Source: Aureimonas sp. AU22 (GTDB lineage Bacteria; Pseudomonadota; Alphaproteobacteria; Rhizobiales; Rhizobiaceae). Taken from it: a DNA stretch of 64,000 nucleotides. The stretch lies in NCBI RefSeq assembly GCF_001463745.1, contig NZ_BBWJ01000043.1, positions 1 through 64,000 of the forward strand, given 5' to 3'. The position numbers and the translations under genes were made by a program. Positions 3,532-19,846 of the stretch are shown here, piece by piece. The notes under the pieces are model-generated. The model saw only the letters and a program-made list of their open reading frames with translations. It was not told where the DNA came from and did not search any database. The first letter of the stretch is position 1, and each line of letters begins with the position of its first letter.

Positions 3532-4734
3532 ATGGGGCAAGACGACTTCGACCAACTCGTCCTGAGCATCTACGACTGCGCCGTCGACCCGACATCCTGG
3601 CCATCGGCCCTCACGCGGACCGCCCGCTTCCTCGGAGCGAGGGGCGCCTTCGTCTTCGAGCTTCAGGGCGGCGGCGGGGCGCGTCGCATCGCGGCCCGCT
3701 GTTTCAGCGACACCTATGACGGGGCGCTCGTCCAGCAGTATCTGGACCGCCACAACGACCAGGAGCTGATCGATCAGGACATCTTCGCCCGGCACTCGAA
3801 GCAGTCGGATGCGATCGAGATGATCCCCGATACGGTGCTCGCGGACACGGAGGCCGAACTGCGCGAGCGAGCCAACGTTCGCGAGATGCAGCAGTATCGC
3901 ATCGGTCACCGAGCAGGTGCCCTTCTCAACAAGGACCATCTCGACCAGGACCGCTTCGCTCTCCAGTTCTCGACCAGCTGGGAGAGGATCTCGCCCGAGC
4001 AGCTTCGGCTGGCATCGCGCGTGATGCCCCATATCGCGAAGTCCCTGAACATCTCCCGCCCGCTGACGAAGCTGGCTGAAACGCATGGGGCCATCGAGCA
4101 GTCGCTGGACCTTCTCGCCGTCGGGGTCTGCGTGATCGATTCGCGCGGAATGATCGTCACCGCCAATGCCGAGTTCCGGGCGCAGATGGCGGCTTACGGC
4201 ATCTTCCGCCTCGACCCGCAGGGACGGCTTGCGATGCGATCGGAGGAATCGATGCGCAGCTTCGCCCGGTTGACGGCGGACGCCAGCGGTCACGGACGCT
4301 TCGGCGGCCGGCCGCGCAAGGAGGCGATCGTGGCGACCGTGAACGGGGAGGAGCATACGCTTTGCGTCGAGGTCGCACCCCTGCAGAAGGCCGCCTCGTT
4401 CGGCGAGCCCGACCTCGTCGGCCACATCGTCTACAGCATGGACACCGGCAAGGGCTTTGCGATCGACGAGGAGATGGTCGCCCCGCTCTTCGCGCTCACG
4501 AAGGCCGAAGCGAGCGTCCTGACGCTCATGGCCGAGGGGCTGACCAACCCGCAGATATCGGACATGCGGGAGCGATCGCTGGAAACGATCAATTCGCAGG
4601 TCAAGGCGGTCCTGGAAAAGACCGGCTCGGCCAACCGCACGCAGGCCATCCGCCTCGCGGTCAACGTGTCGTCCTCGTTTCTGATGTCGAAGCCCCGGAC
4701 GGCGCCGAAGGAAGGCGTTCCGCCTCGAGAGTGA
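3532..4734 (+). CDS. LuxR-type HTH transcriptional regulator
   Basis: A 400-residue regulator with a C-terminal LuxR/GerE helix-turn-helix (about residues 322-385: LTKAEASVLTLMAEGLTNPQISDMR, then TINSQVKAVLEKTG and NRTQAIRLAV). The ~300 N-terminal residues are a PAS/GAF-like sensor region common to standalone regulators of this type in rhizobia, with VICVIDSRGMIVTANAEF-like sequence around residues 200-220 resembling a PAS strand. No receiver domain is present, so it is probably ligand- or state-sensing rather than phosphorylated. It is convergent with the LysE-type exporter gene and divergent from nothing obvious, so the target genes are not evident. Confidence 0.85.
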   Translation: MGQDDFDQLVLSIYDCAVDPTSWPSALTRTARFLGARGAFVFELQGGGGARRIAARCFSDTYDGALVQQYLDRHNDQELIDQDIFARHSKQSDAIEMIPDTVLADTEAELRERANVREMQQYRIGHRAGALLNKDHLDQDRFALQFSTSWERISPEQLRLASRVMPHIAKSLNISRPLTKLAETHGAIEQSLDLLAVGVCVIDSRGMIVTANAEFRAQMAAYGIFRLDPQGRLAMRSEESMRSFARLTADASGHGRFGGRPRKEAIVATVNGEEHTLCVEVAPLQKAASFGEPDLVGHIVYSMDTGKGFAIDEEMVAPLFALTKAEASVLTLMAEGLTNPQISDMRERSLETINSQVKAVLEKTGSANRTQAIRLAVNVSSSFLMSKPRTAPKEGVPPRE

Positions 4735-4787: not shown

Positions 4788-5561
4788 TCAGCGGGATGCG
4801 CTCAAGGTCGTCGCTGAAGCCTCGTTCGGCCGACCGAACGCCGTTCCGTCGCGCATCGGCCCTTCACCCCGAACGCTGACGGCGGCCCCGTGCGGCCGAT
4901 CGACGACCCATCCCTTCAGGACCGGCACGAGGAACGCGAGGCCGACCAGCGCCAGCGAGATCGCCGAGGCGCGGGTAACGAGGCGCAGACGTCGTTCGTC
5001 GAGACGTTCGTGGCTCAGGAGGCGAACGGCGATGACCACGGTGCTCCACCAGGCGAACGATCCGGCGGCGACGCCGAAGACGACGAAGAACGGGATCCCG
5101 ACCCCCGGCGTTCGCCCGAGGAGGCCGTCGAAGGAGGGAATGACGGCCACGAAGAAGAAGACCGTCATCGGGTTCGTCGAGCCGAGGAGCAGGGCCGAAG
5201 CGTAGGATTTGCCCAAGCGCCGCGCCAACCGGCCGGAGAGCGCCATCTGGTCCTTCTCCAAGCGCTGCGTCGACGTCAGAGCGCGAAAGGCGAACACGAA
5301 CAGAAGGCATGCGGACGCGATCGTGAAGACGTCCGAGTTGGCTCCGACGAAGCTGGCGATCTCGCTCGAGCCGCGCACCGCGAGTGTCGCGTAGGCCGCA
5401 TGCACGGTGGCGATGCCGAGCCCCGACGCCAGACCGACCGCAAGCCCGCCGGCGAGGCAGCGGTGGACGCAGAGCAAAAAGGAGGGCCCCACCGGGACCG
5501 CGATCGAGAGGCCGATCAAGACGCCCGAGAACAGGTCGGCTGCAGTCTCGCTTGCATGCAT
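4788..5561 (-). CDS. LysE/RhtB-family translocator
   Basis: An inner-membrane exporter of the LysE superfamily, which moves amino acids or similar small molecules out of the cell. After the ATG at 5561 comes FSGVLIGLSIAVPVGPSFLL, the typical N-terminal helix with its conserved PVGP turn, then VGLASGLGIATVHAAYATL. LLLGSTNPMTVFFFVAVIPS is the central helix, carrying the family N-P motif. About six hydrophobic segments fit the ~257 residues. The open frame extends upstream, but the extra 90 residues are Arg-rich and not family-like. Substrate cannot be inferred from context. Confidence 0.88.
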   Translation of the reverse strand: MHASETAADLFSGVLIGLSIAVPVGPSFLLCVHRCLAGGLAVGLASGLGIATVHAAYATLAVRGSSEIASFVGANSDVFTIASACLLFVFAFRALTSTQRLEKDQMALSGRLARRLGKSYASALLLGSTNPMTVFFFVAVIPSFDGLLGRTPGVGIPFFVVFGVAAGSFAWWSTVVIAVRLLSHERLDERRLRLVTRASAISLALVGLAFLVPVLKGWVVDRPHGAAVSVRGEGPMRDGTAFGRPNEASATTLSASR

Positions 5562-5883
5562 GGGCAGCCCCTGGAACCGGTCTCGTGCCGTCCGCGCCAT
5601 CGAAGCGTCGGCGCTCGCAGGCCGACCATTTCTCCGGCCGATCGCCGCGTCATCACGCGATCGGGGGATGCGCCGCCTGATCCGCTCCTCGCCGGCACCG
5701 TTCGCGGCCGCGGTCCGTCGCCCCCGGCTCGAGGGTGCGCCGCAGGGCGCTCCCGTCCCCCGAACTGGTGATGCCGATCGCCTTGCGACGTTCCAGACTC
5801 CCCGCCGACATCCGCAACGATGGACCTCCACGCCCTTTCGGGTTCACGAGGGCCGCTGACCAGGGTTCGAGGAGGACCAATCC

Positions 5884-7731
5884 ATGCTTTTCACGCTCGG
5901 TCACGGACAGCACGTCATCGTCGAGCCTTCGCCGCCCGCCAACGCGGCGAGGTCTTTGCGCAAGCCGGCGGAGGTCGTGCCGCTGGGCGCCGTCGTCGAC
6001 GAGGGGGACGAAACGATGGCGCCAGGGGAGACGAACCGGGCCCGCGCCCTCCGCGCCAAGCCCGCCGCACCGCTCGGCGGCCCGTTCGCCTACTATTTCG
6101 CGCAAGCGCCGGATGCGCCCGACCTTCCGGACATGGCGGCGAAGCTCGATGCGCTGGCGGAGGCCATGGTGGAGGCGGACGGCGATCCGGACGCACAGAA
6201 CTCCGATATTCCGCCGATCTTCACCTATTTCGGTCAGTTCATCGATCACGACATCACCGCGAACACGGACCGCGACGGCGCGATCTCGATCATCGAGGGA
6301 GCGCAACTGGCGCCGCTCCCTCGATCCACGGTCACGAGCGGCCTTCTCAACTTGCGGAACGGGGCACTGGAGCTGGACAGCCTCTACGGCGACGGGCCGG
6401 ACCAGGGACCGTTCTCGAGGAAGCTCGCTCGGCTGATGCGGCACCCGACGCTCAAGGACAAGATGCGGATCGGCCTCCCATCGAAACCGGACGGCAACCG
6501 GCCGCCGCTACCGGCCGACCCGGCGGCCGACCTCCTGCGCTTCGGTCGTCTCATCGGCATCGACGCGTCCGATCACGTCACGCCTGAGGACCTCCAGGCG
6601 CTCGATCCCGCGTTGCGCGCAAGCTTCGTGGGGGCCGACGGAAAGCCGATCGTGCAGAAGGCGATCATCGGCGATGCGAGGAACGACGAGAACCTCATCG
6701 TCGCGCAGCTTCAATGCGCCTGGCTGCGCTTCCACAACCGGATGGTGGATCGCTCGCACGAGACCGGCAGCGGTTTCCACGACGGCGACCGGTTCGAATG
6801 GGCGCGGCAGCGCGTCCGCTGGCACTACCAGTGGCTGGTGGTCAACGCCTACCTGCCGACGGTCTGCGATCCCGCCATCCTCTCGCGCGTGAAGACCGCG
6901 AACGCGCCGCTCTATGCCGCGTTCTTCGCGGCCCACGGCTCGGGCGACGCCAGACGGATGCCCCTGCCGCTGGAGTTCTCGGTCGCGGGGTTCCGGTTCG
7001 GCCATTCGATGGTGCGCGGCGCCTACGATCACAACCGGTTCTTCGGACGCGCCGAGGGCGGCTCGACGCCGTTCATCGACCGGGCGCCCTTCGACCTCCT
7101 GTTCGCCTTCACGGGCAACGGCCATCCGCCGATGCCCTCGCCGCAAGGGGTGCAGGAGACGCTTCCGACGAACTGGATCATCGAATGGGACCGGTTCGTC
7201 GCCGTCGACCCGGCCTTCCCGGATCGCAGCGCGAGACGGATCGACACGCGCCTCGCGCGCCCCTTGAGCGTTCTGAAGAACGAGGCCGAAGGCGTCTTCA
7301 AGCATCTCGCCAAACGCAACCTGCGTCGGGGCCATCGGCTCAATCTTCCCTCGGCGCAGGACTGCATCGCCGGCATCAACGCCATGCGACCCTACGGCGA
7401 CAGCGCCCTCTTCGCGCTCGACGAGGCGACCCTGTCGTCCGGCCGGACCGGCGACGCCGTGCGGGCCGGGGGCTTCGAGAAGCGCACGCCGCTCTGGTTC
7501 TACGTGCTCAAGGAAGCGGAGGAATCGGCCGGCGGCGCGCATCTCGGGGCCCTCGGCAGCACGCTCGTCGCCGAAACCCTGATCGGGCTGATTGCGAACG
7601 ATCCGACATCCTACTGGAACCAGGCGGGATCGGATCACGGCCGCTGGCATCCCCGGGATGCCAGCGGCCCGGGGCACCCGCCCGTCGACAGCCTGGCGGC
7701 GATGCTTTCCGTGGCGGGGCTTCTCGGCTGA
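5884..7731 (+). CDS. Animal-type (myeloperoxidase family) heme peroxidase
   Basis: A 615-residue heme peroxidase of the peroxidase-cyclooxygenase superfamily, which uses H2O2 to oxidise halides or organic substrates. The distal site FGQFIDHDIT (Gln118, Asp121, His122, Asp123) matches the heme-contacting Asp, catalytic His and calcium-binding Asp of mammalian enzymes. GDARNDENLIVAQLQ holds the catalytic Arg266 and a Glu269 in the position of the second heme-ester Glu. FRFGHSMVRGAYDHNRFF carries the proximal His374. LELDSLYGDGP is also a family signature. I see no classical signal peptide at the N-terminus, unlike the products downstream. It is the first gene of a five-gene same-strand run. Confidence 0.92.
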   Translation: MLFTLGHGQHVIVEPSPPANAARSLRKPAEVVPLGAVVDEGDETMAPGETNRARALRAKPAAPLGGPFAYYFAQAPDAPDLPDMAAKLDALAEAMVEADGDPDAQNSDIPPIFTYFGQFIDHDITANTDRDGAISIIEGAQLAPLPRSTVTSGLLNLRNGALELDSLYGDGPDQGPFSRKLARLMRHPTLKDKMRIGLPSKPDGNRPPLPADPAADLLRFGRLIGIDASDHVTPEDLQALDPALRASFVGADGKPIVQKAIIGDARNDENLIVAQLQCAWLRFHNRMVDRSHETGSGFHDGDRFEWARQRVRWHYQWLVVNAYLPTVCDPAILSRVKTANAPLYAAFFAAHGSGDARRMPLPLEFSVAGFRFGHSMVRGAYDHNRFFGRAEGGSTPFIDRAPFDLLFAFTGNGHPPMPSPQGVQETLPTNWIIEWDRFVAVDPAFPDRSARRIDTRLARPLSVLKNEAEGVFKHLAKRNLRRGHRLNLPSAQDCIAGINAMRPYGDSALFALDEATLSSGRTGDAVRAGGFEKRTPLWFYVLKEAEESAGGAHLGALGSTLVAETLIGLIANDPTSYWNQAGSDHGRWHPRDASGPGHPPVDSLAAMLSVAGLLG

Positions 7732-7749
7732 CGCCCCGCCACCGGGCGT
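7731..7749 (+). other. Small stem-loop just after the peroxidase stop codon
   Basis: ACGCCC and GGGCGT form a 6-bp stem with a 7-base loop, starting on the last base of the peroxidase stop codon. No T-run follows, so it is more likely an intercistronic hairpin than a terminator. Chance occurrence in GC-rich DNA is possible. Confidence 0.25.
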
Positions 7750-7869
7750 GTCTGGCGACCTCCCACGCCGGACACGTCATTTCGGATGCGCACTTCGGCA
7801 GTCGATGCTAGCCTGCCCGAAGAAAGCAGTCGCATTGCATGCATCAAGGTCCGGTTCTCGGGGGAATCG

Positions 7870-9831
7870 ATGTTGCGCAACGGGCTTGTTCGTCTTTCCA
7901 TCTCTTGTGCCGCGCTTCTCCTGTGCGTGGGGTTGCTCGACACGAGCCGCGACGTCGGCGCGGCGGAGACCGATACGGTCTGCAGCGGCAGCACCGTTTG
8001 CCTCGACCAGGGGTGGACGCTCGAGCAGCGGCAATGGTGGTATTCCGTGTCGCAAGGATCGCGGCTTCTGCCGTTGAGCTGGATGCGCGCGCTCGAAACG
8101 GCGGAAGCGGTCGGTGCTCCCGGCGAAGCGCCGCAGAAGTTCCTCGATCCGGCGCACATCGCCAGGCTCGGATATCTCGCCAATCCCGTCTCGCCCGCCA
8201 ATCCCGAGGGCCTGCCGCTCGGCTTTGCCGTGGATCAGGACACGAGCCGCAGCGCCGACATCATGTGCGATACGTTCCCGGCGGCATGCGACGGGCTGGT
8301 GATGCGCCAGAAGTGGGTCGGGCTGAACTGCGCCGCCTGCCACACCAGCGAGATCGAACTCGGCGACCGCCGCCTGCGCATCGAAGGCGCGCCGGCCATG
8401 GCCGACTTCCAGGCCTTCGAGGAGGAGATCGCGGCCGCGCTCCGGCTGACGCTGGCCGACCGGTCGCGCTTCGACCGCTTCGCGCGCGAGGTGCTCGGCG
8501 ACACGATGTCGATCGAAGGCCGGCAGGCGCTGGAAGCGCAGGTCTCCGAACAGCTGGGCTGGCAGCAGGCGCTTCTCGACAAGAACGCCACCCCGCTGCG
8601 CTACGGTCACGGCCGGCTCGACGCGCAGGGCCATATCCTCAACAAGGTCGCGATGACGACGGGGGTGGCGGATCAGCCAAGAACCATCGCGGCCGATGCG
8701 CCGGCCAGCTACCCCTTCATCTGGAACACCTCGCAGCAGGGCAAGATCCAGTGGAACGGGATCGCCAACAACATCTTCAAGATCGACCTGTTCGGCTTCG
8801 AGACCGACATCGGCGCGCTCATCCGCAACACGTCCGAAGTGGTCGGCGTCTTCGCGCATATCGACACCCGTCGCGGCAAGGCGACGCGTGGCTACGCGTC
8901 CAGCCTGCGCCTGCCGGCCATGGTGGCTCTGGAGCGCCAGCTTTCGGTCCTCCAGTCGCCGCGCTGGCCCGAGGAACTCCTCGGGCGGATCGACTACGAC
9001 CGGGCGACGAAGGGCAAGGCCGTGTTCGACCGGATGGCTTGCGCCTCGTGCCATCAGCCCTTGGCGCCGGACGACACCCGAAGCCCGCTCAAGGAGGTGA
9101 TGACGCCGCTCGCGGAGGCCGGAACCGACATCTTCCTCGCTTGCAACACGTTCCTGCATCGCTCGAAGGCCGGCAACTTCGCCGGGCAGAAGATCTTCGG
9201 CGTCGCCGGTGATCGCATCGCGGACACCGACTTCACGCGGACCATGCTCGTCAACACGGCGGTCGGAGCGGTCGCCGGACAGTTCGACGACCTCCTGCTC
9301 AGCCTCTTCACCGACGTCGCGCCGAACGGCCGGCCGTCCGCGTCGCCCTCCCTCGATCGGCGTGATTTCCTGCCGGGCGTCGACGATCCCGCCAAGAAGG
9401 CGCGCGCCCGCGTCTGCCTGACGAACTCCGACGAACTCCTCGCCTACAAGGCGCGCTCGCTCAACGGGATCTGGGCCACCGCCCCCTATCTGCACAACGG
9501 GTCCGTGCCGACGCTCTACGACCTGTTCCTGCCGGCCGGCGTCCAACTCGTGGGCCCGAGCGAGGCGGACCGAGCGGAGGGCGCGGCCGCGACCGCGGGC
9601 GAGGTCGGGCCGCACCGGCCGGAGGTCTTCGGCGTGGGCGGTCGGACGTTCGATCCCATGAAGGTCGGCTTCCGCAGCGATCCCGCACTCAGCCCTTCGG
9701 TGTTCCGGGTGCGCGATCCCGCCACCGGCGCGCCCATTCCCGGCAACTACAATTCCGGACATGACTACGGAAACGCCGCCCTGTCGGATGCCGAACGCCA
9801 CGATCTCGTCGAGTACCTGAAGACGTTGTGA
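7870..9831 (+). CDS. RoxA-like di-heme cytochrome c / cytochrome c peroxidase-type protein
   Basis: A 653-residue exported protein with two c-type heme sites, CAACH (residues 154-158) and CASCH (391-395). The N-terminal LVRLSISCAALLLCVGLL segment looks like a signal peptide, giving periplasmic or extracellular location. The C-terminal block RSLNGIWATAPYLHNGSVPT is characteristic of the family that includes rubber oxygenase RoxA and related di-heme peroxidases. The length is close to RoxA rather than to the ~350-residue CcpA peroxidases. Substrate is unknown: hydroperoxides, or a C=C-containing polymer in the RoxA manner, are both possible. ATG 7870 precedes the leader directly. It sits between the heme peroxidase and a metalloprotease, 13 bases before the latter. 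Confidence 0.88.
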   Translation: MLRNGLVRLSISCAALLLCVGLLDTSRDVGAAETDTVCSGSTVCLDQGWTLEQRQWWYSVSQGSRLLPLSWMRALETAEAVGAPGEAPQKFLDPAHIARLGYLANPVSPANPEGLPLGFAVDQDTSRSADIMCDTFPAACDGLVMRQKWVGLNCAACHTSEIELGDRRLRIEGAPAMADFQAFEEEIAAALRLTLADRSRFDRFAREVLGDTMSIEGRQALEAQVSEQLGWQQALLDKNATPLRYGHGRLDAQGHILNKVAMTTGVADQPRTIAADAPASYPFIWNTSQQGKIQWNGIANNIFKIDLFGFETDIGALIRNTSEVVGVFAHIDTRRGKATRGYASSLRLPAMVALERQLSVLQSPRWPEELLGRIDYDRATKGKAVFDRMACASCHQPLAPDDTRSPLKEVMTPLAEAGTDIFLACNTFLHRSKAGNFAGQKIFGVAGDRIADTDFTRTMLVNTAVGAVAGQFDDLLLSLFTDVAPNGRPSASPSLDRRDFLPGVDDPAKKARARVCLTNSDELLAYKARSLNGIWATAPYLHNGSVPTLYDLFLPAGVQLVGPSEADRAEGAAATAGEVGPHRPEVFGVGGRTFDPMKVGFRSDPALSPSVFRVRDPATGAPIPGNYNSGHDYGNAALSDAERHDLVEYLKTL

Positions 9832-9843
9832 GGGAGGGCCGGG

Positions 9844-10743
9844 ATGGGAGAGGGGAGCGTCGCGGAAAGGTCGAGGATCGGACCGGAAGCGTCGCACCGC
9901 CCTGTCGGCCGGTTCGGCATCCCGGCTCCCGCCGCCCTCGCGCGTGTCGGCGCCATCGCGCTTGCCGTGATCGTCTCCACCTCGGCCGGCGCCCAGGAAA
10001 GCGGGATCGTCGACGCCTTGCGGAACGGGACGATCCCCGGTGGTTCGATGCTCGCACTGCCGTCGCCGGCGGCGAGCGGCGAGCATCCTGGGCCGCCCGG
10101 CAGCGGCTTATCCGGCGCCGGGGCGGGGCGGGACGGCGGCATCCTCGCCATCACCGACGCACAGGAGCGCAACATCGTTGATCGCGCCTTTCCGCTGCTG
10201 GCCAGCAAATGGCCGTTCAACGTCGTCTATGTCTGCTGGGAGCGGCCGGAGGCCGGTGACCATGGCAAGCGCATGCTCGTGCGCCAGGCCGTCCAGGAGA
10301 CCTGGGAGGCCAACTCGGGCCTTCGTTTCCGCGGATGGAACACCTGCTCGGCGAACTCGAAGGGCGTGCGCATCCGCGTTGCGGACGAAGGGCCGAACGT
10401 CAAGCTGCTCGGCAAGTTCGTGGACGGGGTGCCGGACGGCATGGTCCTGAACTTCGCCTTCCGCAACTGGAGCCCGGAGTGCCAGGCGATGAGCGACTAC
10501 TGCATTCGCACGATCGCGGTGCACGAGTTCGGACATGCGATCGGCTTCGCGCACGAGCAGAACAGGCCCGATACGCCCGGCGAATGCGCGGAGCCCGCAC
10601 AAGGCGCGTCCGGGGACACGACCACGCTGACGCCGTGGGATCCGCACTCGGTCATGAACTACTGCAATCCCGCCTACAACAACGACGGCGTCCTCAGCGA
10701 CTTCGACGTCACGGCCGTCCAATATGTCTACGGAGCACCGTGA
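9844..10743 (+). CDS. Secreted astacin/metzincin-type zinc metalloprotease
   Basis: A 299-residue protein with the extended zinc site VHEFGHAIGFAHEQ (His227, Glu228, His231, His237), which is the astacin-style HExxHxxGxxHE form, and a Met-turn SVMNY (Met271) about 33 residues later. A hydrophobic leader, ALARVGAIALAVIVSTSAGA, at residues ~31-50 ends in an AxA-type cleavage site, so the enzyme should be exported. Residues 60-100 are Gly/Pro-rich and may be a linker or propeptide. Cysteines around the core (CQAMSDYC, CAEP, YCNP) could form disulphides outside the cytoplasm. The gene stop overlaps the next start (TGATG at 10741), indicating coupled expression with the serine protease. Confidence 0.88.
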   Translation: MGEGSVAERSRIGPEASHRPVGRFGIPAPAALARVGAIALAVIVSTSAGAQESGIVDALRNGTIPGGSMLALPSPAASGEHPGPPGSGLSGAGAGRDGGILAITDAQERNIVDRAFPLLASKWPFNVVYVCWERPEAGDHGKRMLVRQAVQETWEANSGLRFRGWNTCSANSKGVRIRVADEGPNVKLLGKFVDGVPDGMVLNFAFRNWSPECQAMSDYCIRTIAVHEFGHAIGFAHEQNRPDTPGECAEPAQGASGDTTTLTPWDPHSVMNYCNPAYNNDGVLSDFDVTAVQYVYGAP

Positions 10744-11897
10744 TGCCTGGGAGATGGTCTGGGAAGTTCTCGTCGAAGGACCGGCATGCCGGCGGCTGGC
10801 GGCCCATTGTCGCGATCGCCCTCTTGTCCATCGCGATGGCGGGCGGCGAAGCGGCGGCCCAGTCGCCCCATGAAGCGATGCGACGCAGCCTCGTCGCCCT
10901 CGTAGCGGACGGGATCGGGGGGGAGGGCGGCGCCTTCACCGGCCAGACCGTCGAGGAGCGGGCGACCGGGGTTCTGATCTCCACCGACGGTCTGATCCTG
11001 ACCACCTATCACCTGATCGGCGGCCTCCTGGAGCGATCGGTGGACGGCCAGACCGTCGCGATCAGCGCCAATATCGGCGAGAAGTCGGCCACCCCCCGGT
11101 TCACCAACGTCACCATCATGAACTCCATGCCGCTCCTCGATCTGCTTCTCCTGAAGATCCCGCCGGCTGCCGATCCGTTCCATGCCGCGACGATCGGGAC
11201 CGCCGACGCGCTGACCACCAGCGATCCCCTCTTCACCTCCGGCTTTCCGGAGGCCGCGAACTACACGGTCGAGGAAGGTCACCTGAACAGCAAGGATGGT
11301 CCGAGGGGCTACCTGTGGACGGTGGATATGCCCTTCGCCAGCGGCCAGAGCGGAAGCCCGATCTACGACAAGGACGGCACGGTCGTCGGGATCGCGAAGG
11401 GAAACGACGACCGCGCCCCGCATCAGAACTACATGATCCCGATCCAGTTCGCCGATCCCCTGATCGCCCACCTGAAACTCGCGGCGGTCGAGGGTCGGCT
11501 GGCGAAGCTGGCGCGCGATATCGACCCGTTGCGCCGCCATTTCGAGTGGACCGGCCGATATTCCGAGGACGGGCGGGAGGTTCTCCTCGGATACACCAAG
11601 CTGATGGCAAGCGATCTGCAGGTGCGCAAACTTGCCTACAACGTCTACCTGGAGGCCGACAACTTCGACCGGTGGAAGGCATTCCCGGGCCTCAAGGAGA
11701 TCGACGTCGAGCCGACGGGGCCCGCCGAAGGCACCATCCTGATGGAGGACGTGGCCCAGGCGATCGACAGCTTCGAAAGCTTCATCCGTTACAAGCCGAT
11801 CAAGGAGATCCGCATCGTCTTCGTGCCGACCCTGAGCAGCGGCCAAACTCTTCCGCCTCAGACGGTCTACGTCGAGCCGCGCGGTCGGTCGTCGTGA
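10743..11897 (+). CDS. Trypsin-like serine protease, exported
   Basis: A 384-residue S1-type protease. A leader WRPIVAIALLSIAMAGGEAAAQ at residues ~19-40 points to export. The triad can be read as His90 in ILTTYHLIGG, Asp133 in SMPLLDLLLLKIP and Ser203 in SGQSGSPIYD. The GQSGSP form, with Ser instead of the second Gly, occurs in HtrA-like proteases. No PDZ domain is evident; the last ~150 residues contain an unrecognised region (RYSEDGREVLLGYTKLMASD). The start at 10743 overlaps the metalloprotease stop, and its own stop overlaps the next gene (TGATG at 11895). Pairing two different protease classes suggests sequential processing of exported proteins, which is inference. Confidence 0.85.
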   Translation: MPGRWSGKFSSKDRHAGGWRPIVAIALLSIAMAGGEAAAQSPHEAMRRSLVALVADGIGGEGGAFTGQTVEERATGVLISTDGLILTTYHLIGGLLERSVDGQTVAISANIGEKSATPRFTNVTIMNSMPLLDLLLLKIPPAADPFHAATIGTADALTTSDPLFTSGFPEAANYTVEEGHLNSKDGPRGYLWTVDMPFASGQSGSPIYDKDGTVVGIAKGNDDRAPHQNYMIPIQFADPLIAHLKLAAVEGRLAKLARDIDPLRRHFEWTGRYSEDGREVLLGYTKLMASDLQVRKLAYNVYLEADNFDRWKAFPGLKEIDVEPTGPAEGTILMEDVAQAIDSFESFIRYKPIKEIRIVFVPTLSSGQTLPPQTVYVEPRGRSS

Positions 11898-13309
11898 TGG
11901 GCCTGCGAGCTCGCATGGGCCTGGACCCGATGCGAATGCCGCGTTTCCGGGCGATCGGGATCGCCGTGGCCATAGCTGTGCTCGCGCCTGCGCCTTCCGA
12001 TGCGCGGGCCGCCGGCCTCGATCTCGACCATACCGGCCGGCGTCTCGAACTCGAGGGTGTTCCCTCATTCATGGCGAGCATGGGGGACGAGCGCTTCGTA
12101 TTCGGGTTTCCCGAGGATGATGCCACGCGGCTGTCCGTGATCGATCTCGGAGCGGATCCACCAGCGGAAGTCGCGCGGTCGAGCCTGCGGTTTCCGGTCC
12201 TCGATGGACAGGTGGACTTCTCCGGCCAACGGCTCGTGGCCGTCGGCAATGCGGACGGCCGGTCGTGGATCGCGTCGCTCGATCCGACGTCGGCCGGCGG
12301 GGGCGTGGAACAGCGGTTGCCGATGACGCTCGCCAATCCGCTGGTCGCCGTCGATGCCGCGGGCGTTGCGCGGGTGGCGGACGCGGGCCTCGGCCGGGTC
12401 TTCACGCTGGACGGCGATCTCTTCCGGGACGCTCGCGGCGAGGCCCGCGTCGCGCGGACCCAATTCTTCGACAGCGCCGGGGGCGTCGGGAGCCTGCACG
12501 TCACGGCGGACGGGCAGTTCACCTTTGTCGGGGACCATGCCAGCACGCGCCTTTCGATCCTCGACGCCTCGGGCCGTGTTCTCGATACGTTGGGAAAGCC
12601 CGCAACCTCGAACCGGGGCCGCGTCGCGGGACAGGCCACGGTGAGTTTTCACGACGGGAGCCAGGGCGTGTCCGCTCCGGCCTCGTTGCTCATGGCGGAC
12701 TATGCCAGCGAGACGTTGCGGGTCATCGACTTCGAACCCGTCCTTGGCGCCCTGTCGGTGACGGCAACGGCACCGATCGGCCTGCCCATCCAGCCCGGCT
12801 CGGTCGTGGCGACCGATCCGGTCGGTGCGACACCTTTGTCCCCGATCCTTCTGGGCGCCAGCGCAGACGAGGGCACGATCGCGGTCGGCAACCTCTTCTC
12901 GACCGCGGTCCTGTTTTTCTCCCGGACCGGAAGCGTCCTGGAACGCATCGGATCGGCGACGACGCCGCGACCGCCAGCCTGGATTCTGGTTTCCCGTACC
13001 GGCAAGACCATCGTCGTCTCGTATCCCGATGCGTCCTTCGTCACGATCTTCAGTCTCTCAGGACCGGAGACGACGGCCGAGGGAGGCTCCCGCCTTGTGC
13101 CCGGCGGAAGCCGCGCGGTGCGGGACATCCAGAAAGCGCTCGATGAACTCGGATACCCGATCGGCGTCGTCGACGGCTATGCCGGTCCCCGGACGATGCA
13201 ATCCCTGGATGCCCTGCGGAAAAAGACCGGCCGCGGCATCGACCTCGCAAAGCCGGCCGAGGCCCTGGAAACGCTTCGCTCCCTCCGGATATCCCCCCGA
13301 GAACGCTGA
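11897..13309 (+). CDS. Exported propeller-like protein with C-terminal peptidoglycan-binding domain
   Basis: A 470-residue product with a leader (RFRAIGIAVAIAVLAPAPSDARA). The central ~350 residues contain repeated blade-like units, for example LSVIDLGADPPAEVARSSL, VAVGNADGRSWIASLDPTS, LSILDASGRVLDTLGKPA and VGNLFSTAVLFFSRTGSVLE, consistent with a beta-propeller. The last ~65 residues, from SRAVRDIQKALDELGYPIG through VDGYAGPRTMQSLDALRK, match a PG_binding_1 domain, which would dock the protein on cell wall. It has no visible enzymatic motif. It is the terminal gene of the peroxidase/protease run, start overlapping the previous stop, and may be a wall-anchored scaffold or ligand sensor for the secreted enzymes. 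Confidence 0.72.
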   Translation: MGLRARMGLDPMRMPRFRAIGIAVAIAVLAPAPSDARAAGLDLDHTGRRLELEGVPSFMASMGDERFVFGFPEDDATRLSVIDLGADPPAEVARSSLRFPVLDGQVDFSGQRLVAVGNADGRSWIASLDPTSAGGGVEQRLPMTLANPLVAVDAAGVARVADAGLGRVFTLDGDLFRDARGEARVARTQFFDSAGGVGSLHVTADGQFTFVGDHASTRLSILDASGRVLDTLGKPATSNRGRVAGQATVSFHDGSQGVSAPASLLMADYASETLRVIDFEPVLGALSVTATAPIGLPIQPGSVVATDPVGATPLSPILLGASADEGTIAVGNLFSTAVLFFSRTGSVLERIGSATTPRPPAWILVSRTGKTIVVSYPDASFVTIFSLSGPETTAEGGSRLVPGGSRAVRDIQKALDELGYPIGVVDGYAGPRTMQSLDALRKKTGRGIDLAKPAEALETLRSLRISPRER

Positions 13310-13659
13310 GCGGATCGCCGTCGCCATCGCTGCGCAGCGCGAGGGGGCATCGATTTCGGTTGCATCGGTCCCCTCGCGCGCGACGCGGGCTGACGGACGT
13401 GGAGGTGTCTTCCCGCAGGATCTGGAAACACCCGCCCGATCGCCTCCTCGCCGACTGCGTCGCTTCGATCGCTCGCGGCCCGCATGTTTCTTCGCAGGAT
13501 GCCCTGATTTGAAAGGCGCCGCCTCGCGGACGTCGGACGCAAACTCGTCCTGTTCGTTGAAGGGCAGTCGTGGACCGTCCGCCTGCGCTGGTGAGATCGG
13601 AGAGCGGCTGTCCGCTTCAGGGGCGGTGGGCCACGGCAGACGCCCGTCGTCCCGACGAA
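13310..13659. other. Intergenic region after the peroxidase/protease operon
   Basis: About 350 bases with no credible gene. Frames on both strands are Arg/Ser/Pro-rich and look like composition artefacts. I see no T-run terminator after the stop at 13309. The right part grades into the IS3 remnant. Confidence 0.4.
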
Positions 13660-14300
13660 ACCCTTCACCCTGTTCCATGGGCTGAAGGTCCCCGTCAGGC
13701 AGCCCAGGAAGGGTTGGCTTTGGCTGAACGATGGGTCCTGCGTTCGGCTTCGACCCGAGTGAGCGAACCACGTGTGGTCCTACGACTTCGTCGAACACCG
13801 CACCCCAGGATGGGCGCAAGTTCCGCATGTCTGGCGACAAACGCTGCGCGTTTGCGCCGATGTCATCGATGTCCTGTCCGACCTTTTCATCCTGCGCGGT
13901 GTGCCGGGTCATCTTCGTTCGGCCAACGGCCCCGAGTTCGGGGGCAAGGCGGTGCTCGAGTGGATTCCCGAAGTCGGCGTCAGAACGGCGTTCATCGAGC
14001 CGGGCTCCCCTTGGGAGAACTGCTATTGCGAGAGCTTCAACTCTAAGCTTCTGAACGGCGAGATCTTCAATAGCCTCGCCGAGGCCACGATCCTCATCGA
14101 GAGATGGCGCCAGCACGACAACACCAAGCAACCCCGCTAGAGTCTGGGCTACCGTCCGCCGGCACCTGCCGCCGTGCCATGGCCGGCTGCGCCACCCCGA
14201 CCCGCTTTGCCGGCCACCTTGACCGTGACCAGCAAGCCCACCGCGAATTTGTTTTGGACCGGGCCATCTATTGGGGGCAGTCCAACCTGTCATCTGCCGG
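13660..14300 (+). pseudogene. IS3-family transposase OrfB, frameshifted and truncated (copy 2)
   Basis: Typical OrfB sequence is spread over more than one frame. GWLWLNDGSCVRLRPE is followed by a TGA, then NHVWSYDFVEHRT, then a broken stretch, then VIDVLSDLFILRGVPGH. The DDE-core SANGPEF carries Ala where the second catalytic Asp (SDNGPEF) is expected. EPGSPWENCYCESFNSKLLN has the terminal Glu. A stop at 14138-14140 precedes the residual SLGYRPPAP C-terminus. The 3' boundary near 14290 resembles the ends of the copies at 818-1025 and 61472-61712. The 5' half of the element is absent. It separates two unrelated operons. Confidence 0.88.
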
Positions 14301-14395
14301 ATTGCCTTCTGAAGCTTCGGCTGACCAAAGGACTCCGTGACCCGTAGCGCTCGGCAAGGCGACGATCGCGGTGCTTCGCCGCTGACCGCCCTTGC

Positions 14396-15841
14396 TTAGG
14401 CGAGGCAGATCGGCGGGCGGCGAAGGTCCCAGTGCGTGGCGTCTTCCAGAGCCTGCGCGAGCGAGAGTAGGATCGCCTCGTCCCCATGCCGCCCGATCAT
14501 ATGAATGCCGATGGGCAGCGGCCCGGCCTCGGCCGCGCCCGGCACCGAAATCGCCGGCAGGCCGGAGATGTTGCAGGCGAAGAGGTAGCCGCCCTCGGCC
14601 CAAAGGTCGAGGTATCGGTCGAGATCCGGATTCTCCATCGACCAGAAGCCGATCGGGCGCGGCGGCTCGGTCAGTGTCGGGGTCAGGAACACGTCGAAGG
14701 CATCGAGTTCGCGCTCAATCTCCTGGCCTGCCTTCCGGACGGCGGCGACGTGATCCGCGTAGTCGACGGCCGAGAGCGCCCGCCCGCGCTCGACGAGGGC
14801 CGCATTGACGGGAGCGAGTTCGGAGAGATCGACGGGGTGTCCGACCAGCGGCTCCCAGCGGCGAAAGTCCGCCGCCGTCTCGACGGCGGTGATGCGGGTG
14901 TAGTTCCTCCAGGCGTTTCGGAGATCTGTCTCAAGATCGTGCTCGACGAGATCATGTCCCATGGATGCGAGAAGCGACGTTGTCGCATCGAGGTCGGCAA
15001 GAACGGTCGGAGAGACCGGCCCTCCCCAGGGCGCGGTGCGCGTGAAGCCCACTCTCAGCCGCTCCGGCGGGCGGTCGAGGGCGGAGAGCCAACTCCGTTC
15101 GGGCCGGGCGAGGCGATAGGGATCGCCCGGCGCATCGCCGACTACCGCGTCGAGATAGGCGGCGGTGTCGCGAACCGTGCGCGTGACGCAGAAGGTCGCG
15201 ATGCTGCCGAACCAGAGGTCCGGCACCTGCGGCCCATAGGTGATCCGCCCGCGCGAGGGCTTCAGGCCGACGAGGCCGCAGCAGGAGGCCGGCCCGCGGA
15301 TCGAGCCGCCTCCGTCGGAGGCCTCGGCGATCGGCAGCATGCGGGCTGCGACGGCCGCCGCCGCGCCGCCGCTCGATCCGCCGGCCGTGCGCGACGGGTC
15401 GTATGGGTTGCGCGTCGGACCATAGAGCCGCGGCTCGGTGCCAAGCGACCAGCCGCCCTCCGGCGTGTTGGTGCGCCCGAGAAGAAGGAAGCCGGCCTGC
15501 CGGATGCGTCGCGACAGCTCGGTATCCTCGGGGCACACAAAGTCGGCGAGGTAGCGGTAGCCGTTGGTGAGCGGCGTTCCCTTCCACATCGAGCCGATGT
15601 TCTTGAGAAGGAAGGGCACGCCCGCGAAAGGACCCTCGGCAGGCACGTCTGCGGCGGCGCGGGCGAGATCGAAGAGGCGGAGCGGGGCGGGAACCGCGTT
15701 CAAATCCCCATCCAGTGTCTCGATCGCCGCGATCGCGGTGTCTACGAGCTCGCGTTGCGAGACCTCGCCCCGGCGGACGAGGGACGCGAGGCCGAGAGCG
15801 TCGCTTTCGGCGTAGAGGCGGGTCAAATCCGGCGTGACCAT
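14396..15841 (-). CDS. Amidase-signature family amidase
   Basis: A 481-residue amidase that hydrolyses a C-N amide bond. The Ser-cisSer-Lys triad is complete: Lys80 in [10 protein letters not shown], the cis-Ser near 157 in [14 protein letters not shown] and the nucleophile Ser180 in [12 protein letters not shown]. The length matches the family. The ATG at 15841 has an AGGAG five bases upstream. It is the last gene of a minus-strand operon with BtpA, kinase, peptidase-like and ABC importer genes, so the substrate is probably an amide-bearing compound imported by that transporter; this is inference. There is no signal peptide, so it acts in the cytoplasm. Confidence 0.92.
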
Positions 15842-15876
15842 GTCGATCTCCTGCGGCCGTGCCGTTTCCTGGTTCG

Positions 15877-16719
15877 TCAGCCCCTGTCACGCAGCGGCTT
15901 CACGGTCTCGACGAGTCTGCGCACGCGGGACGTCTCGACCGCGTTCCACCAGACCCCGCCTTCCTTCAGGCTGGAGCCGACGATGGCGCCGTCCAGCCGG
16001 CCGAGGATCTCCGGAGCGTTGTCCACAGTCACACCGCTTCCCGCGATCAGGGGGAGGCGGGTGCCGCCGCGAACGGCGGCGATCTCGCTCTCGGGAACCG
16101 CGTCGCCCGTCCGGTTGCCGGTGGCGATCGCGACGTCGGCATCGGCGAACTCGACATCCGAGGCCTGTTCGCTGACCGGTCGGTCCCCGACGATGGCGTG
16201 CGAGCCGTGCTTGACGTGGACGTCGGCGAAGATCGCGACCCCTTCAGCATCGATCTGGCGGCGGAAGCGCAGGGCGCGCGCGCTCTCGCCGTCGATCACG
16301 CCTTCGTTGGCGACGTAGGCGTTGACCCACTGGTTGACGCGGATGAAGCGGGCGCCGGAGGCTTTCGCGACGGCAAGGCCCGCCACCGCGCCGTTGGCGA
16401 GGACGTTGATGCCCATCGGCAGACCGCAGGCTTCGCGCACGGCTGCGGCGACCACCGCCATCGCGGCGACGATCTCCGGCCCAATGTCGGCCGGCTTCAG
16501 GAAGGGAACGTCGCCGTGGTTTTCGACAATCACGCCGTCCATCCCGCCTTGGGCGAAGGCCTGCGCGTCGCGGCAGGCCCGCTCGATAATGGCGGCCATG
16601 CTTTCACCGCGCGAGCGCGGCGTGCCGGGCAGCGGCGGCAGGTGGATATCCCCGATGAGAGGCTTCCTGACAGGAAAGATCGTGTCGAGGGCGGAGGGGC
16701 GGATCGAAGAGATCGACAT
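15877..16719 (-). CDS. BtpA/SgcQ family protein
   Basis: A 280-residue TIM-barrel-type protein. GDIHLPPLPGTPRSRG at the N-terminus, GGMDGVIVENHGDVPF and LPMGINVLANGAVAGLAVAK are signatures of the BtpA/SgcQ family, as are FIRVNQWVNAYVANEGVIDG and IFADVHVKHGSHAI. BtpA is known from photosystem I biogenesis in cyanobacteria and SgcQ from an uncharacterised enterobacterial sugar locus, so the name conveys no firm reaction. Here it sits between a PfkB kinase and an amidase, which favours an enzymatic role on a phosphorylated sugar-like intermediate. The gap to each neighbour is below 40 bases. Confidence 0.88.
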   Translation of the reverse strand: MSISSIRPSALDTIFPVRKPLIGDIHLPPLPGTPRSRGESMAAIIERACRDAQAFAQGGMDGVIVENHGDVPFLKPADIGPEIVAAMAVVAAAVREACGLPMGINVLANGAVAGLAVAKASGARFIRVNQWVNAYVANEGVIDGESARALRFRRQIDAEGVAIFADVHVKHGSHAIVGDRPVSEQASDVEFADADVAIATGNRTGDAVPESEIAAVRGGTRLPLIAGSGVTVDNAPEILGRLDGAIVGSSLKEGGVWWNAVETSRVRRLVETVKPLRDRG

Positions 16720-16746
16720 CAGGTTTCCGTTTGGCCGGAGAAATCG

Positions 16747-17670
16747 TCAGGGGACCGTTTGCATCGCGGCCGCGACATGGGCGAGGCGGGCGGCGCGGTC
16801 GGCGTGGTCCGGCCGCCGGGTGGCGAGAGCCCCCGTCGCCTCGACGACGTAGGAAGCCGAGACCGTTCCCATCGCGGCGGCGATGGAGGGCGGATGGCCG
16901 GCGACGAGCCCGGCGAGGAAGCCGCCGCAGAAGGCATCGCCTGCACCGGTCGTATCGACGACCGCCGCGGGCCAGGCGGCGACGCGGATCAGTTTTCCCG
17001 TTCCCGCCTCCGCCAACAGCGCACCGCGCTCGCCGAGCTTCGCGCCCATGTGGCAGCGGTGGCGGATCGCGTTGTCCGCAAGGAAGCCCTCGATCGTCGG
17101 AGGATTCCAGATCCGGCGGATCTCCGCTTCGCTCGGGAGAAAGGCGCTGAGGTCGGCGAGGAAGGCGAGATCCTCGTAGAGGGAGGCGTCGATGAAGCGG
17201 TCGGAGAGAATGTCCATCGTCACGATCGGCCGGGAGTGGAGGGCCGAGAGCCGTGCCGCGTTCGCCCGGGAGCTCGCTGGCCCCTGCGGCGCGATGTGGA
17301 AGCCGCGAGCGCCGGAATAGACCGGCGGCAGGTCGCCGCGCTCGTTGTCGAGGTTGAGGGCGCTCTCGGAAGTCAGCTTGGGGACCTGCTGCTTGTGGAC
17401 TTCGCTCTCGTGGAGGAGCCAAAGCTCGAGGCCGTTGCCCACGCTTTTCGAGATGCCGGAGGTGTCGATGCCGCGCGCGCCGATCGATCGGCACGTCTCG
17501 TCGTGATGGGGGCGTCCGGCGACCGAGTGGATGCCGACGGAGGGGCTCCAGAGCGAGGCGCCGATGGCCGAGTAGAGCGCGCCCCCGCCCGGCACGCCGA
17601 GACTGCAGGTCCCGTCCGTCAGGACGATGTCGTCCATGGTCAGCCAGCCGACCGTCACGACGTCGGTCAT
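16747..17670 (-). CDS. PfkB-family carbohydrate or nucleoside kinase
   Basis: A 307-residue ribokinase-type enzyme that phosphorylates a sugar or nucleoside. The signature VVDTTGAGDAFCGGFLAG near the C-terminus holds the anion hole and catalytic Asp, and the glycine pair PGGGALYSAIGASLW is at residues ~28-42. The start at 17670 overlaps the stop of the preceding gene (ATGA), so it is translationally coupled to the peptidase-like hydrolase. The substrate is presumably what the RbsABC-type importer upstream in this operon brings in, perhaps after hydrolysis. The larger open frame upstream of the ATG is a shadow of the neighbouring gene. Confidence 0.9.
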   Translation of the reverse strand: MTDVVTVGWLTMDDIVLTDGTCSLGVPGGGALYSAIGASLWSPSVGIHSVAGRPHHDETCRSIGARGIDTSGISKSVGNGLELWLLHESEVHKQQVPKLTSESALNLDNERGDLPPVYSGARGFHIAPQGPASSRANAARLSALHSRPIVTMDILSDRFIDASLYEDLAFLADLSAFLPSEAEIRRIWNPPTIEGFLADNAIRHRCHMGAKLGERGALLAEAGTGKLIRVAAWPAAVVDTTGAGDAFCGGFLAGLVAGHPPSIAAAMGTVSASYVVEATGALATRRPDHADRAARLAHVAAAMQTVP

Positions 17671-18869
17671 CGCCCCGCTCCGGCCAGGAGTGCCAGGGGC
17701 GGGCGAAGCAGGGCGGCGTAGACGAGCGCTTTCGAGAGATCGACGATGTCCGACAGGGCCGCGCGCGGCTCGCCGCGATCGAAATGGCGGTCGAAGCCGG
17801 GGAAGCCGAGAAGCAGGATGTTCGGGGTCTTCAAGAGGACGCTTACGTCGTCGCTCCTCGACGTGTAGGCGTTGTTCGATTCCTGGATGCCGACGCCGAG
17901 CTCCGGCAGCAGGCCGCAGAGATGACGGGCAAGCGCGTAGAGGGGCGGGGGCGTGACGGCGCCGCGCGCGAGGCTCGAGAACTCGCTGAGGACCGCGCCC
18001 TGGCCGATGCGGGTGGAGTTCGAAGGCCCGGCGCGCGCATCCGCCTCGCCGCCGGCCTGCTGCATGTCGGCGACGATCGCGAGATCGGGCGGGGCGAGCC
18101 GCGAGACGATGCGCGATCCGCCTCGCCCCATGACCTGGCTTCCCGTGCCGTGCGGTCCTTCCTCCTCGTCGGGAAAAGCCAGCAACGCGTCCACCCCGGC
18201 CTCGGCGATCACCGGTGCGGCAACGGCAAGGGCGGCGGCGCCGCCGGCATTGTCGAAATGCCCGGTCCACAACCCGTCCCGTCCCGGCAGGCACCGCGTG
18301 ACGGGCACGACGCGGTCGCCGGCGCGCAGGCGCAGCGCCGCATCCACCGGCGCGAAGAAGGGCGCCCCGGCCTCCGACTCCAGCCAGCCCTCCGCCGCGA
18401 CCGCGTAGCGCCCGCTGGACAGGTCGAAGCGATAGGCGCGCGCGGCGCGGCGGCCGTCGGCCGTCAGGTGGTAGCAGAAGGGGACGAGCGGATGGCGGTG
18501 GCCGTCGTGCGGCTGGACGAGGTAGCTGATCGTGTCGAGATGGGCGAAGTACCAGAGGCCCTTGTCACCGGACGCCGCACCGGCGGTGAGGACCGTGCTC
18601 GCGGTGTTGCCGAAGTTCGGCTCCAGCACGAGGCGGCCGTCGGACAAAGCGCCGTCGGCATCGAGCAGGTCACGCAGGACGGGGGCGCGCATGGCGCTCG
18701 CCGCCGTGGAGGGGGCCGGGGTCTCGGCGAGGGCCACGAGGTAGCGGGCGACCCGCTCGGCCGTGACGTGCCGGTCGACGAGCGGACGAAGGGCCGCCGC
18801 TTGCTGCCGCAGGGCGTGAAGGCCTTCCGCGATCGCCACAACCGGTTCCATCGCGATGGCGGCGCTCAT
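17667..18869 (-). CDS. M28/M20/M42-like zinc aminopeptidase-type hydrolase
   Basis: A 400-residue protein with the co-catalytic zinc ligands in order: AHLD (His110, Asp112), the bridging Asp206 in GHFDNAGG, the Glu cluster DEEEGPHGTG (235-237) and Asp268 in IVADMQQAGG. A final His is present in FDRHFDRGEP. This arrangement is that of clan MH peptidases. It has no signal peptide, so it is cytoplasmic. Such folds also include deacetylases and amidohydrolases, so the substrate need not be a peptide. It overlaps the kinase start by ATGA and its own start overlaps the upstream permease stop. The apparent 990-residue open frame is an artefact: only the last 400 codons are coding. Confidence 0.82.
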   Translation of the reverse strand: MSAAIAMEPVVAIAEGLHALRQQAAALRPLVDRHVTAERVARYLVALAETPAPSTAASAMRAPVLRDLLDADGALSDGRLVLEPNFGNTASTVLTAGAASGDKGLWYFAHLDTISYLVQPHDGHRHPLVPFCYHLTADGRRAARAYRFDLSSGRYAVAAEGWLESEAGAPFFAPVDAALRLRAGDRVVPVTRCLPGRDGLWTGHFDNAGGAAALAVAAPVIAEAGVDALLAFPDEEEGPHGTGSQVMGRGGSRIVSRLAPPDLAIVADMQQAGGEADARAGPSNSTRIGQGAVLSEFSSLARGAVTPPPLYALARHLCGLLPELGVGIQESNNAYTSRSDDVSVLLKTPNILLLGFPGFDRHFDRGEPRAALSDIVDLSKALVYAALLRPPLALLAGAGR

Positions 18870-19840
18870 GCACGGCCCCTTCGCGACATGAGGTAGACCG
18901 CGACGACGATCAGCGCGCCCTTGAAGAGCTGCTGGACGAAGGGGTCGACGCCGGTGAGATTCAGGATGTTGGCGAGGACGCCGATGATCAGCGTCCCGAG
19001 GAAGGTGCCCCAGACGCTGCCGACGCCGCCGAAGAGGGAGGTGCCGCCGACCACCACCGCCGCGATGGCGTCGAGCTCGTAGCCCTGCCCGGCGATCGGC
19101 GTGCCGATCGAGAGCTGCGAGGCGTAGACGAGGCCGGCAAGGCCCGACACCGCCCCGGAGATGACGTAGACCGCGGTCGTGTACGCGCGAACGGGCACGC
19201 CGGAGAGGCGCGCCGCGTCCTCGTTCGAGCCGATCGCGTAGAGGCTGCGGCCGAACGGCGTGCGGCCGAGGATCACGGCGCAGACGAGGAGGAGGGCGAG
19301 CAGGATCAGCGAGGGAATGGGGACGCCGAGGATGTAGCCGTTGCCGAGGTCGTAGAAGGACTCGTCGAGGATCGGGATCGGCGTACCGCCGGTGTAGATG
19401 AAGCAGAGGCCGCGCGCGAAGGAGAGCATGCCGAGCGTCATGATGAAGGGCGGGATGCCGGCGACGGCGACGCCGAGCCCGTTGACGAGGCCGGCCAGCA
19501 CGGCGGCCCCCAGGCCGAGCGGGATCGCGATCGCCATCGGCTGGCTTTCCAGGAAACCGGCGTAGAGAACCACGGAGATGCCGAGGATCGAGCCGACCGA
19601 CAGGTCGATGCCGCGCGTCAGGATGACGAAGGTCATGCCGATGGCGAGGATGCCGACGATCGCGACCTGCCGCAGGACGTTGAGGAGGTTCGGCAGGGTG
19701 AGGAAGCGGTCCGACAGGAAGGAGGCCGCGATCACGAGGATCACGAGGGCGGCGAGGACGCCGACCCGGCGCCAGGCCCTCATGAAGGACCGGCCGTCGA
19801 TCCTCGAACTCTTCGGAACGTTCTGCATGGTCAGGCTCAT
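18866..19840 (-). CDS. Sugar-type ABC transporter permease (RbsC-like)
   Basis: A 324-residue inner-membrane permease of the BPD_transp_2 class. Typical features are FLTLPNLLNVLRQVAIVGIL, the hallmark GMTFVILTRGIDLSVGSILG and ELDAIAAVVVGGTSLFGGVG near the C-terminus. About 8-10 hydrophobic segments are visible. It should form a homodimer channel with the ATPase encoded just upstream (19847-21340), from which it is separated by six bases. Its stop overlaps the start of the peptidase-like gene, placing transport and processing in one transcript. Confidence 0.93.
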   Translation of the reverse strand: MSLTMQNVPKSSRIDGRSFMRAWRRVGVLAALVILVIAASFLSDRFLTLPNLLNVLRQVAIVGILAIGMTFVILTRGIDLSVGSILGISVVLYAGFLESQPMAIAIPLGLGAAVLAGLVNGLGVAVAGIPPFIMTLGMLSFARGLCFIYTGGTPIPILDESFYDLGNGYILGVPIPSLILLALLLVCAVILGRTPFGRSLYAIGSNEDAARLSGVPVRAYTTAVYVISGAVSGLAGLVYASQLSIGTPIAGQGYELDAIAAVVVGGTSLFGGVGSVWGTFLGTLIIGVLANILNLTGVDPFVQQLFKGALIVVAVYLMSRRGRA

Positions 19841-19846
19841 CCGTCG

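Follow-up and report, generated by a model that had tools for sequence, protein, structure and literature searches.

In the part of the source drawn on here, System 3 of Kaur et al. (2020; PMC7159879) is a multi-peptidase conflict system, mostly alphaproteobacterial, for which a proteolytic cascade is proposed. It is the nearest published theme overall to the locus described below, and two papers on the oleate diol synthase of P. aeruginosa (PMC4496055, PMC6377657; likewise drawn on in part) are the nearest for one of its enzymes and the regulator associated with it. The locus lies in a stretch of 64,000 nt of contig NZ_BBWJ01000043.1 of Aureimonas sp. AU22; the whole stretch is called the window, and AU22 the own genome. 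It comprises five consecutive genes, g1–g5, for a heme peroxidase, a RoxA-like di-heme cytochrome c, an astacin-type metzincin, an HtrA-like trypsin and a beta-propeller, with a gene for a LuxR-type regulator upstream. We tentatively favour an explanation in which the locus represents one version of an island that is modular and patchy in its distribution, and that couples a regulator and an oxidase to an exported two-protease unit. Among the matches listed, the open papers searched gave no description of the whole gene arrangement.

Gene content of the locus

The regulator and the five genes are placed as follows.

3532..4734, plus strand: LuxR-type (GerE) transcriptional regulator (Pfam GerE, 36.5 bits)
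5884..7731, plus strand: g1, animal-type (myeloperoxidase superfamily) heme peroxidase, 615 amino acids, accessory
7870..9831, plus strand: g2, RoxA-like di-heme cytochrome c oxidase/peroxidase, 653 amino acids, leader-like N-terminus
9844..10743, plus strand: g3, astacin-type metzincin, leader-like N-terminus
10743..11897, plus strand: g4, HtrA-like trypsin, leader-like N-terminus, beta-rich C-terminal domain
11897..13309, plus strand: g5, beta-propeller, leader-like N-terminus, C-terminal peptidoglycan-binding-like domain

The original prediction of five consecutive open reading frames on the plus strand was confirmed; it had not listed the regulator. Its calls of heme peroxidase, RoxA-like cytochrome, astacin-type and trypsin-like protease agree with matches to Pfam and NCBIfam. 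The product of g1 matches An_peroxidase (PF03098) at 57.5 bits (cut-off 25) and carries distal and proximal catalytic motifs (GQFIDHD, GDxRxxEN and FRFGH). That of g2 matches RoxA-like_Cyt-c in Pfam at 58.8 bits and the NCBIfam model NF040606 at 554.7 bits (cut-off 150); it has two CxxCH motifs 237 residues apart, and PYLHNGSVP. In g3, which matches Astacin at 30.6 bits (Pfam cut-off 22.5), the zinc motif HEFGHAIGFAH (HEFGHAIGFAHE) and SVMNY correspond to the HExxHxxGxxHE signature and Met-turn, and roughly 65 residues appear to lie between the leader and the catalytic domain. The g4 protein matches Trypsin_2 at 69.5 bits, with the motifs LTTYH and GQSGSP and no PDZ match in Pfam; its model (pLDDT 76.7) shows an HtrA-type trypsin, a long helix and then a beta-rich domain, and Foldseek matched it to DegP, DegS and HtrA. 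The AlphaFold model of g5, built with four sequences (pLDDT 71.5, pTM 0.72), consists largely of beta structure apart from a helical C-terminal part, and Foldseek matched it to many beta-propellers. The own genome holds five Trypsin_2 genes. Searched against the defence profiles of PADLOC 2023, g4 matches RT-Protease_XI (39.8 bits, within the trypsin domain) and the regulator matches CARF models (19 bits, within its helix-turn-helix end); g1, g2, g3 and g5 have no match.

The tight packing predicted for the last three genes was borne out, with a gap of 12 bp between g2 and g3 and overlaps of one base at g3/g4 and g4/g5, and so were export leaders in four of the five proteins: judged by N-terminal hydropathy, which is not a signal-peptide prediction, strongly hydrophobic stretches open g2–g5 and are absent from g1. 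The start of g2 is best placed at 7870, rather than at 7786 where the listed open reading frame opened, because by our own reading a leader and a ribosome-binding-like sequence are found there. The resulting spacing of 138 bp between g1 and g2 contains an inverted repeat. A sigma-70 scan returned no promoters (0.5 expected), and a scan for terminator-like sites returned four (4.7 expected).

Recurrence of its parts in other genomes

A single search of genome contigs with an alignment of g3 yielded 21 loci, in nine of which (L108–L113, L115, L117 and L123) a g4-type trypsin gene lies directly downstream on the same strand. At an assumed rate of 0.2% per locus, and ignoring shared ancestry, the probability of nine or more is about 1.5e-19. 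Stop-to-start offsets of adjacent protease pairs run from -169 to +30; the subtilase–trypsin offset of L110 (967) and the metzincin–trypsin offset of L190 (2244) were excluded because other genes or space intervene. Four of 16 plasmid g3 records were inspected: g3 is followed by a g4-type trypsin in L034 and L134 and is not followed by one in L135 and L152 (S. sojae). The position preceding the trypsin is taken by a subtilase in L129, L130, L147 and L149, and in L190 and L195 a subtilase lies between a matrixin-type metzincin and the trypsin. The motif G-x-S-G-x-P is found in 16 of 18 trypsin copies, the others being an L147 copy that was left unscored and an L117 copy (15452) that lacks the serine. 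In L117 (Mesorhizobium helmanticense; 7160-20653), whole and partial copies of g3, g4 and g5, among them the g4 copy without the catalytic serine, are found with an M23 peptidase; in L195 (4460-12816), on a conjugative plasmid of R. ruizarguesonis, amidase, matrixin, S8, trypsin and M23 genes lie a few kb from traA.

The two proteases occur together with the propeller (g3-g4-g5) in three further loci, from S. terangae, R. phaseoli and a Roseobacter (L034, L108 and L109). The propeller follows a second trypsin in M. helmanticense and adjoins a trypsin in all five loci, the window included, where the profile found it. A g4-type trypsin is present in six of the 24 g2 loci (window included). In the Roseobacter, a g2 gene with 37% identity adjoins the trio, and a g2 remnant is present in S. 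terangae, where pieces of g2 flank a two-gene insertion that we take to resemble an IS21 element; in R. phaseoli, g5 lies 0.86 kb from the end of the contig. Gene order, the conservation of which the original prediction had offered as a check, differs: g2-g3-g4-g5 in the window is g3-g4-g5-g2-P450 in the Roseobacter.

The upstream regulator recurs too. It is 40–55% identical to six regulators that adjoin close g2 relatives (in R. brockwellii, Rhizobium sp. WL3, Ruegeria pomeroyi, G046, G087 and G115), and two R. leguminosarum records (L202 and L203), near-copies of that of R. brockwellii (L129), show the same pairing. A related regulator thus adjoins g2 in all eight close g2 relatives fetched (48–61% identity as measured for six; 59% for the other two), and in six of these loci a subtilase and a trypsin also follow. 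On plasmids, nine regulator matches were obtained at E<=1e-20, every one adjoining a di-heme gene: five (L129, L130, L131, L202 and L203) adjoin a g2 of the close type, and the remaining four, from P. yeei, a gene of the distant type (profile 73–76 bits). The g2 locus L132 has a weak regulator match.

These recurrences bear on the simplest alternative, that unrelated acquired genes were packed together by chance at an insertion hot spot. A transposase remnant does lie at the edge of the locus, and g1 and g2 are unlinked in all five other genomes that have both. The regulator–g2, g3-g4 and g3-g4-g5 combinations, and g2 with g3–g5, however, recur in different genera, and stop and start codons overlap. 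The recurrence therefore counts against chance for g2–g5, though not for g1, and chance neighbourhood is a very improbable account.

A rival account is signalling of the oxylipin type, in which g2 would be a fatty-acid dioxygenase like PA2077/PA2078, the regulator would sense its product, g1 would handle hydroperoxides and the proteases would be the output. The heme spacing of 236–243 in nine g2 relatives is nearer to that of PA2077/PA2078 (245/235) than to that of RoxA (199) (PMC4496055), P450 genes lie near g2 in four of the 24 g2 loci (L109, L132, L182 and L185), and OdsR of P. aeruginosa adjoins and controls a di-heme operon (PMC6377657), although it is LysR-type and not LuxR-type. In P. 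yeei, a regulator (43% identical) adjoins a di-heme gene in four of four records, followed by genes annotated as catalase family and peroxidase family; on one record Pfam gave RoxA-like_Cyt-c, Catalase below its cut-off and An_peroxidase. The heme spacing there is 262, however, and the peroxidase has no BLAST match to g1, so P. yeei is a distant parallel. The motif PYxHNGSVP does not discriminate, being present in RoxA too. We consider this account unlikely; it accounts more readily for the oxidase than for the proteases, and is compatible with a regulated exported module.

The peroxidase g1 is the loosest member. Nine relatives were examined (39–51% identity; the Rhizobium records H7, H8, H10 and H11, at about 40%, lie outside the nine), and four have peptidase genes as same-strand neighbours: S8 and C1 in Palleronia, trypsin and C1 in G402, metzincin, S8 and trypsin in G304, and trypsin in G045. 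In R. sullae a subtilase is on the opposite strand. Profiles found no peptidase beside the other four (P. yeei L032, G020, R. gallicum and Phyllobacterium) or beside any of 13 distant relatives (30–37%; L035, L138–L146 and L153–L155). In none of the five other genomes that have both (G086, G087, G185, G402 and G511) is g1 near g2, the two being on different contigs or some 2 Mb apart, with linkage across the ends of the short contigs of G086 and G087 still possible. The original prediction would have failed had homologues proved unclustered elsewhere; this applies to g1 with g2 and not to g2–g5. We therefore rejected g1 as a core member, and it is best read as an added, exchangeable oxidant-handling enzyme outside the core. 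Two g1 relatives, in L189 (5610-11677) and L033 (7227-12860), lie between leaderless-looking trypsin or subtilase proteins and papain-like (C1) proteins, an arrangement that resembles cytoplasmic conflict systems; the L189 trypsin protein matches the PADLOC 'nacht' model at 96 bits.

Possible function and origin

Our preferred model builds on the observed domains, catalytic motifs, leader-like N-termini and packing, and on the recurrence of the regulator–oxidase, the protease pair and the protease–propeller trio. The LuxR-type regulator (3532-4734) would switch the set on and the products of g2–g5 would be exported, g2 acting as a periplasmic RoxA-like di-heme oxidase. The two-protease unit would consist of an effector endopeptidase, a metzincin here and a subtilase elsewhere, followed by the HtrA-like trypsin. 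Astacin precursors elsewhere are activated through a two-step cascade, and the g4 trypsin may likewise cleave the g3 precursor. The propeller of g5 would tether the proteases to the wall, and oxidase and proteases would jointly damage or remodel cell-surface proteins, a use against competing microbes or a host being likelier than one in feeding. The oxidative and proteolytic surface attack of the original prediction, with g5 as anchor, is possible.

Several results weigh against this model. None of the other loci examined carries all five genes, and the five-gene unit is rejected on that ground; of the clustering that had been predicted, g3-g4, g3-g4-g5 and g2 with g3-g4-g5 recur. Twelve of the 21 g3 loci have no g4-type trypsin directly downstream (L119 and L126 are on contigs that stop at g3 or shortly past it), and two of the eight close g2 loci (L131 and L148) have the regulator and no protease by profiles. 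The distant regulator homologues L186–L188 have no g2 nearby, and the distant g2 homologues L109, L133, L150, L151 and L174–L185 have no regulator match in the stretch fetched. Among 13 intergenic stretches the best shared 9-mer occurs in six loci, compared with four to six in 10 shuffled controls, so a common regulator-binding motif was rejected. So was SKW, before the g3 catalytic domain, as an activation site, since some trypsin-paired homologues lack it and some unpaired ones carry it. Of the propeller and peptidoglycan-binding call for g5, the propeller is upheld by the model and Foldseek, and PG_binding_1 reaches 19.9 bits, below its cut-off of 23; the relative in L117 scores 59.2 bits. 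Target and substrate are guesses.

Other versions of the locus bear on two further explanations. In L147 (4228-8096) and L149 (4057-7929), M4 and M28 peptidases are added, and g2 has beside it a small Cys/Trp-rich protein whose N-terminus is leader-like; its C-terminal 70 or so residues are common to the neighbouring M4 and M28 peptidases, possibly as a sorting or anchoring tail. The added peptidases and the leader-like N-termini of g2–g5 would suit a feeding set, in which a secreted oxidase and proteases degrade extracellular protein or polymer. The recurring genes include no transporter or catabolic enzyme, however, several versions are plasmid-borne and near transposase, lysozyme-type or transfer genes, and HtrA-like trypsins do not normally serve as bulk digesters; we find a feeding role rather unlikely.

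The Cys/Trp-rich protein also suggests the second option of the original prediction, maturation, whereby the di-heme enzyme and the proteases would act on one specific exported substrate, the former oxidising and the latter trimming it. MauG and MbnH oxidise specific substrates of their own, and g2 weakly matches MbnH and MauG-like models. The C-terminal domain of the Cys/Trp-rich protein, on the other hand, is unmatched in the window and finds nothing better than E=0.01 in the other loci, and the window locus offers no candidate substrate; maturation is improbable. We regard as quite doubtful a further reading: a periplasmic di-heme dioxygenase would make an oxidised, oxylipin-like signal, and its partner LuxR-type receptor would sense it and release the exported two-protease cascade, in which an exchangeable effector protease is joined by a wall tether and by accessory heme enzymes, the whole forming an undescribed class of alphaproteobacterial island.

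The distribution of the genes is patchy. Among 385 genomes of the class, own genome counted, g2 was found in 13 (E<=1e-40), the regulator in three (E<=1e-30) and g1 in 16 (E<=1e-20); in G079, the one genome of the same genus searched, g1, g2, g3 and g5 have no match. Within the family, 103 of 151 genomes match g4, with no score above 34.5 bits apart from that of the own gene and with nearly all matches over the HtrA-like domain, and 36 of 151 match g5; the g5 matches listed, own gene aside, cover only the C-terminal region (within residues 371–471) at 25.7 bits or less. Viral contigs gave 27 pattern stretches and no relative of g5. The island looks acquired. Upstream of g3-g4-g5 in S. terangae (L034, 771-3600), on the opposite strand, are a caspase-GH25 fusion and a second GH25 gene. 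Further features of the window are these.

4788..5831, minus strand: LysE-type translocator between regulator and g1, outside the recurring set (Pfam LysE, 68.1 bits)
7747..7776: inverted repeat between g1 and g2, nine of ten pairs, 10-base loop, without a T-run (script and sequence)
13772..14140, plus strand: transposase remnant closely downstream of g5 (rve_3 integrase core, 46.8 bits)
18866-19840, minus strand: ABC transporter permease, downstream
21406-22506, minus strand: ABC transporter periplasmic binding protein, downstream

Should this grouping be upheld, it would put a name to a recurring pair of exported proteases and to the heme oxidase and regulator attached to them, and would point to a function for a large family whose annotation is merely di-heme cytochrome C peroxidase. 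It would also offer a place, in plant-associated and marine bacteria, to test oxidised lipids as signals or joint oxidation and proteolysis as a weapon.

Comparison with described systems

Taken singly, the proteases are of familiar types. The zinc motif and Met-turn of g3 are those of astacins (peptidase M12A), and g4 shares its fold and catalytic motifs with the HtrA/Deg proteases, from which it differs in having no PDZ match and a different C-terminal domain. We know of no operonic pairing of an astacin-type with an HtrA-like protease. The oxidase shares the RoxA-like C-terminal cytochrome motif with the rubber oxygenases RoxA, RoxB and RoxC; unlike them, it scores 40.9–55.4 bits on their NCBIfam models (cut-offs 900–1000), and its heme spacing of 237 differs from the 199 given for RoxA (PMC4496055).

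Closer to g2 and its regulator is the oleate diol synthase operon and oxylipin regulon of P. aeruginosa (PMC4496055, PMC6377657), in which, as far as the parts of those papers used here describe it, a periplasmic di-heme RoxA-like enzyme likewise lies beside a regulator. The heme spacing of g2 falls within the range of 235–245 that serves as a criterion for PA2077/PA2078 (PMC4496055); a fatty-acid dioxygenase activity of g2 is putative. The Aureimonas locus differs in that its regulator is LuxR-type rather than LysR-type, in having one di-heme enzyme rather than two, and in the proteases attached to it.

With System 3, in the part of Kaur et al. (2020) used here, the locus has in common a trypsin-like peptidase, represented by g4 with its Trypsin_2 match, and a second peptidase, which in System 3 is a subtilase or papain-like, together with a possible attack on peptidoglycan. 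It differs from that system in that the core NucA endonuclease (PF01223) has no match in the own genome, the same search being positive in four of 14 control genomes, and in that neither g1–g5 nor the regulator contains an EAD1 or STAND domain by Pfam. The proteins of the window, moreover, carry leaders, and heme oxidases take part.

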